64,000 bases of DNA from Cloeon dipterum (lineage: Eukaryota; Arthropoda; Insecta; Ephemeroptera; Baetidae): NCBI RefSeq assembly GCF_949628265.1, contig NC_088786.1, positions 5,084,001 to 5,148,000 on the forward strand, in the 5' to 3' direction. Positions within the stretch are counted from its first letter, which is position 1, and each line of letters starts with the position of its first letter. The position numbers and the translations under genes were made by a program. Below the pieces are notes generated by a model. That model was not told the origin of the DNA. It saw only the letters and a program-made list of their open reading frames with translations, and ran no database searches. Positions 36,101 to 46,125 of this stretch are shown here, in pieces.

Positions 36101-39100
36101 GGCGCATTGCCCCTCCCATTATTTTTTCTGTGAATTGCTTTTCATATTTCTCTTTTTCCTTTCAAGCTTTTTACCTCTGGCCACAGGAGGGGCAATACCA
36201 CCTGAGAAAAGCTGCTTGCTTACCTCAAAGAAGGTATCTAGGGGAACGGTGGTTGCGAAAGTGACACCCAAATATTTCTACACTAGGAAAAAACATTTTA
36301 AGGGTGGCGCTTCCGAAGCCATTCATTCCACCTATTGACTGACACACAATACGACACAAACTTGACCAATTGCTGCTCTTAACCGTTAGCCAATCTGCAA
36401 CCCTGCAACATCGGAGCAGAACAACTCCCAAAAGAGGGCTTGAGTATTCAGTGTAAAAATGAAAGCAACACTTACGCTTAGGTTTTGGTTTCTCGTTGAC
36501 CTTCTTCACCACATCCTCCAGCTTACTTTTCTTTTCCACAGGTTCTTTCCCACCTGGTGGAGGTGACCTCTTGAGGTTAGGTTTATCCTTGAGGTCCTTC
36601 TTGCTGTGACCTCTCGGGGGCGGCAGCGGAGGCTCCTCCTCCAAGCCAGTCGACCTGAACTTTGAGTTGAAAGTTTTCACCTTATGCTTGACAGGTTGCA
36701 TGGGTGAAGAGACTTTGTCCACAACAGGTGATTTAGACTCCTTCTTTGATGGCTTTTTCTTCTTTTCGTCGTCAGTGGAGCTACGTCTCGATGAATCCGC
36801 CTTTTTCTCACTAAGCGAATCCTTTTTCTTGTCGCCATCCTCAGCTTTGCTCTTTTTTGGAATTTTTGCCAGCACGACTTTTTGGCTTGTAGACTTGAGC
36901 TGCGCTAAAGTAGCCTCATCTTTCTCTTTTTGCTCCTTCAGCTTCTTTGCTTCCCTCTCGGCCAGCTTCTCTTTCAGCTTTTTCTGCTTCTCTTTGAAAA
37001 GCTTTTCCTTGATTCGCTCCTCGTCTGCTCTCTTCTTTTTGGCCGCCACCTTCTCCTGGTTTTGCTGTCGCTTTTCCAAGTCTTCCGCAGTGTGCAGCTC
37101 CTTCGGTTTCAAGTCCTGCTTCCGTCTGGCCGCTCCCTTTGGTCCATCCTTGACGGGCGAGGTTTCAACGAGTGGCACTTCTACTTCGACAGTTTTGAAT
37201 TCGGGCTGAATTGTTGGGCCAGTAGTGACCTTGGCAAGAACGTGTTTCCCGTCCCGCATGGTCAGTCTGTAAACTGGCAGTTCTCCCAGAGGTTGGGCAA
37301 TCGGCCCATCCTCTTCGATCGATGTCGAAGTGGCATCGCACGCATCTTCATCTTCTTCCTCCTCCTCCTCTTCGACATCCTCAGGTTCCTCTTTGCTCAA
37401 TTCTAACTTGACTGCTTCTTCAGTTAACACCTGGTTAGAATCGATTATCGTTTCTTCGACTTCTTCCTTGATTTCTACTTGGGTTTGATTGGTTGTTTCC
37501 ATCGCCGCAGTCTTAATGTCATTCATTCTGGCTATTTCCTTCCAATGCGAGACTACTTCGTGAGCAAGCAATTTGACGCCTGAAAATTGAGCAATGCACA
37601 TTAATGCCTGCATTACGAAACTGTGAACTTGGATGGCTTGAGAAATAAACTAATGAAATCATTGAGCTTTGTTCTCTTAAATCATTTTGAATTATCACTT
37701 TGAAGGAAAATACATTTTAAACCAACAGAAATAGCAATTTAACTATCGTTTGTGATTTTAAATTGACAGATAATGAAGAAATAATTTCTTACGCTCATTT
37801 GGTGCAGCTGTTATTAAGGAGTTCACAGATCTGGCACAGTCGTTGATCTTCAACACTTCTAGAGGGAACCAACTTTTCTTGGTAAGTGACAGCAGGGTTT
37901 CCAGCAATGGTCCGTTGTTTGTTTCCACAGCATCTAATATCCACTGGCTCACCAGTTCCCAGCCACCATGGACCATGTAGTTCTCCAGTAGTTTACTTTC
38001 AGTTGCATGCAAAATCTCCACATACACACACTTGCTGACAAGCTTCTTTGAGAATTTGCTCATCAGACTGAAACAGAGAAAAAAGAAAAACGCTCGGTTA
38101 GTTCTGTGGAGTGGAAATATGCGAAATTTTGATTTACCTTACTATCCTAGCAACATCCTCTTGGGTTTTGATTCCTCCCAAGGGATTAAGCAGCACACTT
38201 AGACAGTCTAGTAATGAAAGCGGATCAATCCTTGGCTGCAAAACAAAGAGCACGATCAGACACAAATTTTAATGCATCATAAAAACGTTTTTAGAGCTAC
38301 AATCAATTGCTAGCAACTTGAGCGCTTTGAACGTCTCTACTTGCAACTTATGCAGTTATGTCATTTGCCTTACAAGCGTAAAAATGGCAATTGTGATGTG
38401 TCAGACCTCATCGAGTGCAGAAAAACACGCGAATAAGCGATTAAATTCATGAGCTTTAGTCAGCACATTTTGTCTACGGTTTGACAAAAATATATTGTGA
38501 TCAACACAATAAATATATGCCAGCAACAACAGTGCTTTTGTCAATAATGACAATTATGCGCTGCTACCCAGGTAGATCCTCATTTTGAGGAACGCAGAAC
38601 ATTGAAACTACTTCCTGACCCTTTTATGCTATCTATCAACCATTAACGCGTGTGTGAGGAATAGTTACGAATGTCTCTGCGAAGTAATTGTTTTTAAATT
38701 AACAGTTAGTTGATTATTTGTATCATTCCATTCATTGTCATGAAAAACAATTAATTAACCAAGAGGCTCAGGGAAAATATTATGAAGCTTTTAGTTTTTT
38801 TATGATCTTGTTATCCACATCACTCCTAGAAATTTCCCACGTGTTGTGCTATTTCTTAACTTCAGAATGGCGCTTAAATATATGAATAAACAGCTAAAAA
38901 GTAGTGGCAATGGAACAGCCACTAAAGTATATGGAGGACTCACAATTTTCAACAGGATAGGTCATTTCAATTGAGATTGATTAAAAATAGGACATTTCAA
39001 TTGATTTTGCTGGGAAAATATAAAACCAGGCTTCAATCCTCGTTCAAATCTAACAAATTGAGAGAAATTACTTAAAATGGGGCTTTAGGAACTCAGTTAA

Positions 39101-40764: not shown

Positions 40765-41443
40765 TTTGAAATATTCTTAATATGTTGATTTTACTTATGT
40801 CCTTGAAACAGCTGAAATCAGATTGTCGTAATTTAGCCCATTTCAGGAAACTTCTATTATGTAAAAATTTATCAATGGCGTCTCTGACGTCACTCAGCAA
40901 GTCACGCAGCAAAGTCTCTTAGTTTAACCAAGATTTGTGCAAGCATCACGATTTAAATTGTAATATGAAGGTAGCAACTATTGATTATTTTTATGACTTG
41001 GTTTTTCGTATGGAAATTATTTGGAAAATATCGCTGCTTCGTTCAAATTTGGCGTTAATATTTAATCGCTCAGAGAACGCCTTATACTATTTTTCTGTCC
41101 CAGTTGATTTAGTTTTATAGAAGACTCGTTTACACTTACATTCAAAAAAATTTCAATTAAAATAGCCATAATTTTTTAAGAGTTTTTGCTATGGCAAATC
41201 ACAGGGCAACCAAATCGATGGTCGACTGATGACAATAGAGGTTGGGTGGGTTGGGTGAGGGGACGATAGTTTGTAACAGATTCGTCCACATAATATGCGT
41301 TGAACCTGCGAACAGAGAATAACTAATTAGATAAACCTGTAGATCGAACTAAGGCGAATAAAATTCACTCAGTTCTAGCAGTAGATGACCAAAACCAAAC
41401 CGAATAAACAGGAATTTTAAATAGGAAATGTAGAATTGCTTAC
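38236..41443 (-). other. Probable 5' introns of PNUTS, with a candidate small start exon at 40,762-40,811
   Basis: About 3.2 kb of AT-rich DNA lacks protein-like exons. Two splice-site pairs suit the PNUTS leader. A 50-bp segment at 40,762-40,811 is flanked by TCTGATTTCAG and ATG followed by GTAATT. A strong donor (GTGGAG before GTAAGC) sits at 41,443, just outside the inverted repeat. A leader exon starting in the left arm of that repeat and spliced to the small ATG exon would explain both. Confidence 0.4.
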
Positions 41444-41573
41444 CTCCACGAAATCTTTGCTCAGCTTACAATGGTGATAGAGGGATGAGGGGAAAAAGAG
41501 GAGAAGGAGAGAAAAGTCGAGCATCGTCGGCAACGTCATCGCTTTGGTGGTGGGGACCGGTGGGGACTGGGGA

Positions 41574-42196
41574 GTAGAGTGCTTATAACGAGAGTGAGAC
41601 TGGCCTGCGCACTGCCGCTTCCCTACCTCTCCCCATGTTAAAATAAGCGCACGCGACGCGGTTGGCGCTACAGCTAAATTCATGAAGCCACCCGCGGACT
41701 TATTGGTGTCAATCGAACGCGCACGAGTCGTTTTATCATATAAATATAATTCGGAACCGAGCCTGAAAACAAAAGCGCTTTCGAGAATTCCACCGCTGAA
41801 ATCAAACCATTTCGCTGCGAGCTCCGACAGCGACGATCGCACCCGAGCGTCAGCGGCTGTCGGCGAAGCACGCATCAGCGCATCACCATGGCAAAAAGAC
41901 AGCCAGTGAAGTGAAATACACTTGTTGTCTGGAAATGGGCAGATTTCAGCGGTGGAATTCTCGAAAGCGCTTTTGTTTTCAGGCTCGGTTCTTGAGTTAT
42001 ATGATAAAACGACTCGTGCGCGTTATTGACACCAATAAGTCCGCAAGGTGGCTTCATGAATTTAGCTGTAGCGCCAACCGCGTGCGCGCATTTTAACATG
42101 GGGAGAGGTAGGGAAGCGCAAGCGGCAGTGCGCAGGCCACAGTCGCGTCGGTCGGCCTAGCCAATTAGCCATCTCACTCTCGTTATGAGCACTCTA
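41574..42196. repeat. Long near-palindrome: inverted repeat with 230- and 255-bp arms
   Basis: The left arm (41,574-41,803) is the reverse complement of the right arm (41,942-42,196), separated by a 138-bp spacer. The innermost 49 bp (41,755-41,803 against 41,942-41,990) match without a single difference. The outer parts carry scattered substitutions, small indels and a roughly 34-bp insertion in the right arm. The spacer contains a further small inverted repeat (CCGACAGC and GCTGTCGG). The block lies between PNUTS on the left (transcribed leftwards) and the SPATA7-like gene on the right (transcribed rightwards), so it fills the position of a shared promoter. No target-site duplication is visible. 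Alternatives are a foldback element or a hairpin-RNA precursor. Confidence 0.93.
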
Positions 42197-42225
42197 GTGG
42201 GGAGGAGTGGAAGCTTAGGAGAGCA

Positions 42226-44066
42226 ATGCTTCAATGTGAGTATTTAAAAATTCGCGCGATTACAAATGATGCATTTTAAGCCAATAGCAACCTGGCTAGA
42301 GTAAAATTTTATTTGGGGGAATGTGCATTAAAGATGCTGTCATTTGCTAGACTTTGTGGTGGGGATGATTCTGTGTAGCTTTGGGCGGTGCTCCAGTGCT
42401 TGATCGATATGGTCAAGCACGTCAAGCACCAAGCAGGTGCAGGTGTATGTAAACACGAAATGTGTCAAAAGTGGTGCGTGCTTTTTGTAAGTCAGGAATT
42501 TATTGATTAATGTAAAATGGGGAAAGCAAGAGGTGTTCGTGTCTCGTTGGACAGCGTCGTCGCCTTGGTTAACGAATAATTCACGATGGCGCCAGCAAGG
42601 GTGATTGATCGATGATGGACTTAGCGGCGCTGATTCGGGATTCGGGCCCTCTTGAAAAGTGCGATGCACCTGCTGCGTTTTGTTACTTTGTTACATTTTG
42701 AACGAATAGCTTCTTTAATTTAATGCGCTATGGCAGCAATGCCACACTTCAAAGTCAACTATTCTCGCGTCAGAAGCAATTGTATGTTATTTAAACTCTC
42801 AGGGGTTTGTTATTAAATTTGATAAACAAACTTAAATATTTTCAGGTTTAGCTGATACAACATGTGATCCAGTGGCGCAGCACATGAGAGCTTGGAGGAT
42901 TTTACAGCACGAACTGAAAATTCAGAGGGTGAAAACTTGGGAAAATCACCACGTAAATCCTGGCAGGCAAAATATTAGCAGTTCAAAACATGCGAACATT
43001 CCAAATCCATTGAGATGCTTTAGCAGGTACTAATATTTATATGCATTAAATTTCTCTTATAAATATCGATGTTTTTAGGTTGAGCTTGCAGCCAACAAGC
43101 GTAAGCCGGTCGCCAAGTTCTCTACGAAGTCTTCAGGTGGAGAGGAAAAATGCAAGGATTTCTTTCTCTGCGCATAATGAGAGCCACAAAAAGCACGGAG
43201 ACTTTGCCAAAGAGGTCACCTTCAAGCCTAAGATATTGGACACATCTGCCACTTCCAAATTGATTCAGTCGAGGAACTATCAAACCCCCAAAAAGAAGAC
43301 ACTGCCTCAAAGCAGGACAGTAAGTTGAAATCAACATCCTCTTATCTTTTCATCACCAGTATAACCTTCAGAGTTCGGCTGTTTCTACAAAATCAATCGA
43401 ACCTGGTCAAAGAAAAGCGGAGCATAAAAACTGGTCTCAAAGTCGCCCGGAAAGCAGCAGTTCGTCATCAACTGGCTGCGATTCCGCGTACGAAGCTGGA
43501 GGGTCCATCGAAGCTCTCAGTCCTCACTCCCGGAGCTCAACTCCTCAGCAAGTTACAGTTCGCGGCGCAGAGCCAAAGTTGGATACAGATGTAAGCTAAA
43601 TTTAATTTGAATTTGTGCTTTAATCTGATCAAAATGATTTCTCATCAGGTTGAAGAGAGTAGAATTGTTGGAAAAGAAATTGAGAATGCTATAGAAGAAT
43701 TGATTGAGCGGCCAGGCACCCCAGTGAATTTGATAGACAGGTGAGGCTCCTATGCCCCAATTAAATTTACCATTAGTCATTTTGTTCATTCTCAATTTAA
43801 GAAACGAGAGTCTGGAATACATTTTGTTCGAGCACGACTTGATGAATGAAATCGCTTCCTGTGGTGTTTTGACAAACTTCAGCGTGAGGGAGATCTGCAG
43901 GTCATTCGCCCTGACCAATGGAAAATTGCTGGAGCAGTGCAAGGTGCAAGAAATTGTGGAGCGAGTTCAAAAACTTGTAGGAGTACCCGACAACGCTAGT
44001 CTAGACTTCTCCGATTTTGGGCTGCACGGCAGCTTTGATACACCAAGCAATGCAACGTCAGAGTAA
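42226..44066 (+). CDS. SPATA7: SPATA7-like ciliary protein, 335 aa
   Basis: Human SPATA7 acts at the photoreceptor connecting cilium. Six exons: 42,226-42,235, 42,846-43,026, 43,079-43,319, 43,372-43,590, 43,649-43,740 and 43,802-44,066; lengths sum to 336 codons. The N-terminal block has HMRAWRILQHELKIQ, comparable to the NHM...KILSAK block of human SPATA7. A central NYQTPKKK resembles the human YYTPAKRKK. The C-terminal 75 residues (ESLEYILFEHDLMNEIASCG, then VLTNFSVREICRSF) align well with the helical end of the human protein. The middle is low-complexity and Ser-rich. At 335 aa it is much shorter than human SPATA7 (about 600). The tiny first exon (ATG plus seven bases) is inferred from a donor before GTGAGT and from phase. 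The acceptor of exon 4 could also be 43,360, in frame. It starts 30 bp outside the inverted repeat. Confidence 0.75.
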
Positions 44067-46125
44067 ACTTAATTCACATTTTTTTGTGTGGAACTTGTGA
44101 TATTTCCTAGTCAATATTTGCAAATCAGAAGTGTATTTTATAGAACCACTGATAAGGAGTGTTTGTTGAAAGTACAAAAGCAGCATTTTATCATAACTGA
44201 AACTTTATTGAATTTCAAAAATACAGATTCTGTTTACATCTACAGATTAAACACATTCATGCTGGAACTGACCAATAAATTGAATGACCTTTCGCACAGA
44301 CTTGGATAAAAATTATTTCCCATCCACAAACATGTCGCTTCTAATTTAAACAGTATTGCATCATTAAATATTAATTTGTTCACATTCTACAGAGTTGATT
44401 GGTAACTTACAGTGAACAGTAAAGAGATATAAGTTAAAAAAAAAAATCAAAAAAGAGTCACCCCATAAAGTGAAATATATTTACACGGAGTTCTTAAGAG
44501 TCACATCACCATAAAGAACTTGAAAATAAAGTAACGATAGTAGAATCTACAGCTATCACCAGTTGAACTGGCACGTGTAACAAAATACTGACAGTTTGAA
44601 CTCCCCATACCAATCGGCACACACATTGACGAAATATTTGATTTCTTTTTATCTTGGTTATATCATTCTGAGATAGGACAATATCACAATAAAATGTTAG
44701 AATTAAACATTTTGTCAGCAATCCACGGGTAGAAACTTCCACAAGCAGATCAGTTTGAGTTTGTGGCAGTTTCTTTGCTGCCCGAAATTTGGTCAGTCAC
44801 ACCTTCCTATCCAAATAGGTGAAGGTTTGCAAAGACTTGTTTCATCTAGCTACTTGTAAAGAACAAAACCCCAACTTAGACTGCGCAAAACAAACAGGAT
44901 ATTGTTTTAAAAATCAGACATGTCCATTTTAACTCAGGTGACAAAAAAGTAAAAATCACCATCACAGGCTAAGATGGAGCTATTTTTTGTGTTTCATTTT
45001 TCTTGTGCAGCTTATTTCTCTATTGCTAGAGATATTAACACTAGAAAAATTTAATTTACAGATCTTGCATTTATCATTTTAAAAAGAAATCAACTTGCTA
45101 AGTCCGTCCTTAAAAATCAAGGTAACTCGCAACTCGCGAAGTTATCGTTAACTTCATTCCATTTTGTACAAGCTGTTTGTTGAATACCATATATTTATGC
45201 TTGGATCTTTAAAAAAATAATATTTTGTCATTCCTTTAAAATTGCAAAATTATAATATATTAATTCAGGGTTCGTAAACATGATTAAAAAATACTTAAGT
45301 CGGTTGTCATTTCTAGTTAACTGTTAGGTGGGTGTCAAGTGAGGTAACTAAAGCTTTTCCAACTTAAGCTGCCTTGCCCTTGTGCATCACAACATTTAGG
45401 AACAATGAATTGAAAGTAGGACAAAATTATATTCTTAATCGTGATGTTCGGTATTTACGCGGGAGGTAACAAATATTATTTGTAGAAAAGATGGCATCAA
45501 AAATCAACCCGTACTGTGTTCAAAACAACTGTATTTTCAGTATTTTAAAGTACTGAGAGGAATAATAGGTCTTGGGTTATCGGCGGATGTTGCGATATAA
45601 TTAAAAAAAGGTCTTTTTATTTGTTAATTGATAAATTTTCATGAACAATTTAAACCAAATAAAACTATAACGAGATAAAACATAATTTATTCCACGGTTA
45701 AAATTTGGAAACATAAAGCATAAAATATTGAAAATATATTAAAACTGAATTTAAACCTGAAAGAAATAAAGGTGTAAAAGTAGAATAAGGGGAAATTCCA
45801 TTTTCTATAAACAGAATTCAAAAAGAGCTAAAAATTTGGTAAAAATCATTAGGACGCAAATGAATCAAAAGAAGCGATAGGTATCATTGCATCCACATGA
45901 GTCAAAAATCGTTACGGAGGATAAATTGAAATATTTAAGGCCGGAATGTTGCTTGTAGAGCTTGGTGTCTTTTAAGATCAAATCGCGGCCAGCGCGTTTG
46001 AAGATATTGGCAAGAGCCCTACCGCAGCACCCAGAGGTGAGAACCGCACATTTTTAGACAAAAGGTCAGGGAAAAAAGAGGATGAAGAAGCTGCCGTGAA
46101 CTGATAAAATGAGGAGCAGCAAGTC
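44067..46125. other. Intergenic DNA between convergent SPATA7-like and NANP genes
   Basis: About 2 kb, AT-rich, without supportable exons. It must contain the 3' ends of both neighbours. A possible AATAAA for the SPATA7-like gene lies at 44,275. No repeat family member was recognised here. Confidence 0.55.
44275..44280 (+). terminator. Possible polyadenylation signal of the SPATA7-like gene
   Basis: AATAAA about 210 bp after the stop codon, the first canonical signal on this strand. Confidence 0.45.

Follow-up and report, generated by a model that had tools for sequence, protein, structure and literature searches.

The window analysed here, a stretch of 64,000 nucleotides from the mayfly Cloeon dipterum, contains between two genes a long imperfect palindrome that extends from position 41575 to 42196. 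As the original prediction had it, these neighbours stand head to head, with PNUTS on the minus strand and a SPATA7-like gene facing it; base 41574, which had been counted as the first of the palindrome, already belongs to the flank. The features are listed below in positions of the window.

41140 to 41169, minus strand: exon that opens the coding sequence of PNUTS isoform X2 at NCBI (MAILIEIFLN); next comes the PRIDP exon, with its start at 38235
41567 to 41574, no strand: left target-site duplication CTGGGGAG, equal to the right one in seven of eight bases
41575 to 41813, plus strand: left arm, read here as terminal inverted repeat of a P-MITE, with a deletion near its outer end if compared to the right arm
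41814 to 41931, no strand: central part, corresponding to an inner section of the left terminal repeat in a 5.2-kb element and ending in the junction that seven MITE copies share
41932 to 42196, minus strand: right arm, read as the other terminal inverted repeat of the P-MITE
42185 to 42227, plus strand: first coding exon of the SPATA7-like gene, LOC135942617 isoform X2, whose first four codons, ATG included, lie in the terminal repeat
42197 to 42204, no strand: right target-site duplication GTGGGGAG, which in the NCBI model encodes residues 5 and 6 and supplies two bases to begin the codon of residue 7
42226 to 42235, plus strand: another candidate for the first coding exon, located beyond the element (ATG CTT CAA T / GTGAGT); its frame continues into exon 2
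42846-43026, 43079-43319, 43372-43590, 43649-43740 and 43802-44067, plus strand: remaining exons of the SPATA7-like gene

The identity of PNUTS was confirmed by its NCBI name, serine/threonine-protein phosphatase 1 regulatory subunit 10-like. The name of the second gene, which is unnamed at NCBI, whose protein belongs to a cluster of seven and which we take to be SPATA7-like partly from resemblance, is hinted at by a Pfam match of its Neocloeon relative to HSD3/SPATA7 that stays below the cut-off (E=0.00027, 21 bits against 27); the Cloeon protein itself gave no Pfam match. Searching Pfam with single window exons of both genes yielded nothing, and a search of solved structures with one PNUTS exon gave nothing better than a weak hit on a different protein (E=0.83). 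The annotated start of PNUTS isoform X2 at 41169 lies about 400 bp to the left of the palindrome, and the PNUTS proteins of a second Cloeon record, of Neocloeon triangulifer and of Ephemera danica begin with MPRIDP, unlike Cloeon X2. A splice donor predicted on the PNUTS strand outside the left arm is present after base 41444, but the exon it would close contributes no coding sequence to either of the two Cloeon PNUTS proteins inspected. PNUTS of another NCBI record of Cloeon dipterum (P0004) is 86% identical to the query, compared with 96% for the record of the window, so records under this species name may hold divergent lineages.

The palindrome itself is beyond doubt. Alignment of its arms, which lie at about 41575-41813 and 41932-42196, gives 216 identities among 227 aligned bases (95.2%) and a further 50 gap columns distributed over six gap runs, and the best self-inverse local score in a 3-kb region is 200, against a maximum of 20 in 60 first-order Markov samples. 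The identical inner block that had been described is present and measures 50 bp instead of 49.

This sequence is not confined to the locus. In the Cloeon dipterum genome (190 Mb on 10 contigs were searched, so that counts are lower bounds, and matching pieces within 6 kb were joined into one place) at least 59 related pieces fall into at least 20 places. The repeat end TAGAGTG was matched 19 times with up to three mismatches, the reversed control pattern not once. Among nine copies with both ends, five are flanked by perfect 8-bp target-site duplications and the window copy by one with seven of eight equal bases; three show no duplication (4, 5 and 1 of 8 bases equal), perhaps because of later change. 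Random pairs of 8-mers from the window reached at least seven of eight equal bases in 117 of 200000 trials. Repeat ends at many places together with 8-bp duplications are marks of a DNA transposon. Dispersed copies with target-site duplications are also what the original prediction had named as the sign of a mobile element, and its passing suggestion of a young foldback element was right in kind.

Short members of the family measure 605-622 bp in four full-length copies and 436-453 bp in three others that have lost part of one arm. All seven examined share one junction stretch with small differences among copies, which is best explained by a single deletion and subsequent spread. The full-length copies correspond to approximately the first 339-342 bp plus the last 251 bp of a 5.2-kb element, and their matches to it lie inside its terminal repeats and outside its coding part. 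Being short and non-coding, with terminal inverted repeats and several copies of one internal structure, they are miniature inverted-repeat elements (MITEs). Arms of the window copy are 96.0-98.4% identical to the matching arms of the three other full-length MITEs, thus closer to those than to each other (95.2%); this fits independent drift, and the gene conversion between arms that had been considered is not needed. Three more diverged relatives (C2:5365134-5366351, C2:35913627-35914921 and C4:34258186-34259468) are long palindromes themselves, with self-inverse stretches of about 750-1000 bp that are 71-88% identical.

The 5.2-kb element is represented by two copies, L016 (C2:724150-729359) and L015 (C5:3638175-3643377). 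Where their bases align they agree to 99.87%, a closeness that points to recent activity in Cloeon dipterum, and they have terminal inverted repeats of about 369 bp with within-copy identities of 100% and 99.5%, respectively. A Pfam scan of ten open pieces of L016 alone revealed above the cut-off the TNP-like RNase H N domain (PF21787) in two pieces (4.8e-6 and 4.3e-8) and the GTP-binding insertion domain (PF21788; 1.4e-6). THAP (1.2e-4, 23.3 against 23.9 bits) and RNase H C (PF21789; 0.017, 15.6 against 24 bits) remained below it. The exon pieces of L016 joined by X match the structure of the Drosophila P transposase (PDB 6p5a) with E=1.7e-18. In a protein search with these joined pieces, in which the best 7990 candidates by shared words were scored, two matches were found, P0117 and P0118. 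The latter, an unnamed protein, has the same P-type domains and 30% identity to the transposase pieces (E=2.1e-65). The former (NCBI LOC135934700 from Cloeon, 372 amino acids) is 68% identical to 32% of the joined pieces; it may represent either an older copy of the element or a host gene that arose from such a copy. Tnp_P_element (PF12017) has no match in the 5.2-kb copies; its only genomic match (C1:27843744-27843896) lies away from the palindrome family.

Membership in the P superfamily is indicated by the P-type transposase domains of L016 and by a target-site duplication of 7-8 bp, which is complete in five of nine two-ended copies, has seven of eight bases in the window and is lacking in three. 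Two other origins were considered and dropped. The TAGAG end together with the 8-bp duplication was first taken as hAT-like, presumably in keeping with the end rules of that group, but the transposase is of P type and no hAT domains occur in the ten pieces of L016. A heat-shock promoter, which visual inspection of the arms had brought to mind, was discarded as the arm sequence recurs at the ends of an element that bears a transposase.

Several known systems are comparable. With the Drosophila P element the Cloeon family shares a homologous transposase (6p5a) and the 8-bp duplication, the latter according to one report (PMC1562414). The same report describes P-MITEs of Anopheles gambiae as non-autonomous elements that retain P element ends, make 8-bp duplications, have P masters in the same genome and are over-represented within 500 bp on the 5' side of genes (PMC1562414). 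The Cloeon MITEs resemble them in the retained P-element ends, the 8-bp duplications and the P relatives in the same genome, and by analogy the position of the window MITE fits this 5'-of-gene bias. They differ in that the Anopheles masters, as given there, have terminal repeats of 27-31 bp instead of about 369 bp in the Cloeon 5.2-kb element, and the core of the Anopheles MITE is unrelated to P, whereas the Cloeon MITE consists nearly entirely of repeat (PMC1562414). Long foldback-like terminal repeats and a THAP-bearing transposase are known within the P superfamily from Galileo of Drosophila, as two papers present it, although THAP in Cloeon is below the cut-off (PMC4168063, PMC3688188). 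According to these papers the Galileo repeats are 0.5-1.2 kb long and internally repetitive, compared with about 369 bp in Cloeon, and its duplications are mostly 7 bp long with three of 8 bp in D. willistoni, whereas those of Cloeon have 8 bp at TAGAGTG ends (PMC4168063, PMC3688188). Other members of the superfamily have terminal repeats of 30-50 bp in the account of one of them (PMC3688188), again in contrast with about 369 bp here. Membership in Galileo itself was rejected on account of the 8-bp duplications, the repeat length of about 369 bp and the GTANTAC motif typical of the 7-bp Galileo duplications, found in none of six Cloeon duplications with seven or eight equal bases. Among the matches listed in a search of open-access titles and abstract openings, no report of this P-MITE or its gene start was found.

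We therefore regard it as almost certain that the palindrome is a P-superfamily P-MITE and that the annotated start of the SPATA7-like gene lies in its repeat, a statement about the position of this start and not about its use in cells. The reading is carried best by the repeat family, its ends and duplications, the shared junction, the transposase homology and the exact match of the annotated protein. The P-MITE consists of little beyond both long terminal inverted repeats of a transposase-bearing element of approximately 5.2 kb. A copy that had lost its interior and carried a specific junction would have arisen and then spread, presumably with the transposase of the 5.2-kb element acting on it in trans. 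One copy would have been inserted between PNUTS and the SPATA7-like gene and have duplicated 8 bp of the target, and a change in the right terminal repeat would have created the ATG at which the public SPATA7-like model starts the protein. In this respect the origin of the palindrome is ordinary and well explained.

The start of the SPATA7-like gene deserves closer attention. NCBI isoform X2 of LOC135942617 begins MSTLVGRSGSLGEQ and was rebuilt exactly from exons of the window (346 of 346 residues) with five introns, of which four are GT-AG and one is GC-AG. When exon 2 was kept at 42846 and 20 ends of exon 1 were tried (42220-42239), 42227 alone reproduced the beginning of the X2 protein. The end of this exon lies in a CAATGCTTCAATGTGAGT repeat (42223-42241), and the GC-AG intron may reflect an 8-bp GCTTCAAT indel between haplotypes. 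The annotated start codon at 42185 is inside the right terminal repeat: the transposon closes with the 12 bases ATG AGC ACT CTA, which code for residues 1-4, and the adjoining GTG GGG AG is the duplicated target site, in which residues 5-7 lie or begin. This ATG results from one base change that is present in one of the 19 matched repeat ends. In its frame the nearest upstream stop is at 42158 within the element, and after removal of the element in silico the frame contains no ATG back to its stop. The start that had originally been placed 30 bp outside the right arm exists as an ATG at 42226, but the annotated X2 start is the one inside the arm.

Two accounts of this start were weighed, and both accept the element as a MITE. 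According to the first, chances of which we consider even, the start at 42185 is a by-product of annotation, and translation really begins at ATG 42226, spliced at the GTGAGT donor. This ATG together with the canonical donor after 42235 opens the clean frame MLQCLADTT..., and with that donor exon 2 is read in frame from ATG 42226 but not from ATG 42185; a canonical splice at 42235 would thus favour ATG 42226. The donor of the X2 intron (AAT|GCTTCA), which begins with GC, is poor, and the CAATGCTTCAAT repeat could hide an 8-bp indel between genome and transcript. In addition, three in-frame ATGs occur upstream in the element (41888, 42056 and 42098), each followed by the stop at 42158; a longer transcript would meet them first, which counts against a start at 42185. 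On the other side, a GC-AG intron at a poor donor would be an unlikely model unless transcripts supported it, so that X2 presumably had such support, and the Neocloeon protein has 14 residues before CLADT, like the NCBI Cloeon model, though the letters differ.

The second account, in which the P-MITE was captured as 5' end of the SPATA7-like gene, can be put forward only tentatively and appears somewhat less probable. Transcription would start in the element, the point change would supply the start codon and the first residues would be those of the terminal repeat and the target-site duplication. It thus supposes a transcription start inside the element and a use of ATG 42185 in cells.

Turning from the gene start to the palindrome as a whole, it could be a functional hairpin locus from which siRNAs are made of a read-through transcript. 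Its RNA is predicted to fold very stably (-452.6 kcal/mol against a mean of -195.2 in 20 shuffles; z-score -43.9), but any element composed of long inverted repeats folds in this way, and we hold such a function to be unlikely. The original prediction preferred a mirrored promoter, i.e. a regulatory region duplicated in inverted orientation that would co-regulate both genes. Indeed the palindrome fills the head-to-head gap, and the two genes share one contig in Cloeon and, apparently, in Neocloeon. Against it, the sequence is dispersed throughout the genome, several copies having target-site duplications of their own, a transposase-bearing element carries it at both ends, and the annotated PNUTS start is about 400 bp outside its left end. 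As to origin this proposal is refuted, the arms being terminal inverted repeats of a P-superfamily element, and it retains hardly any probability. Least likely of all is an assembly fold-back, since, although long inverted repeats can form during assembly, seven copies at different places have the same junction, five two-ended members of the family have exact duplications and the arms differ in sequence.

The P-MITE reading thus adds for a mayfly a long-repeat family of the P superfamily in which nearly identical 5.2-kb copies occur alongside MITEs. What merits further attention is that the model of a host gene takes its start codon from a transposon. If this codon is used, it would be a compact example in which the end of a transposon, together with a single point mutation and the duplicated target site, became the 5' end and the first residues of a host gene, and this event could be dated by comparison of populations.
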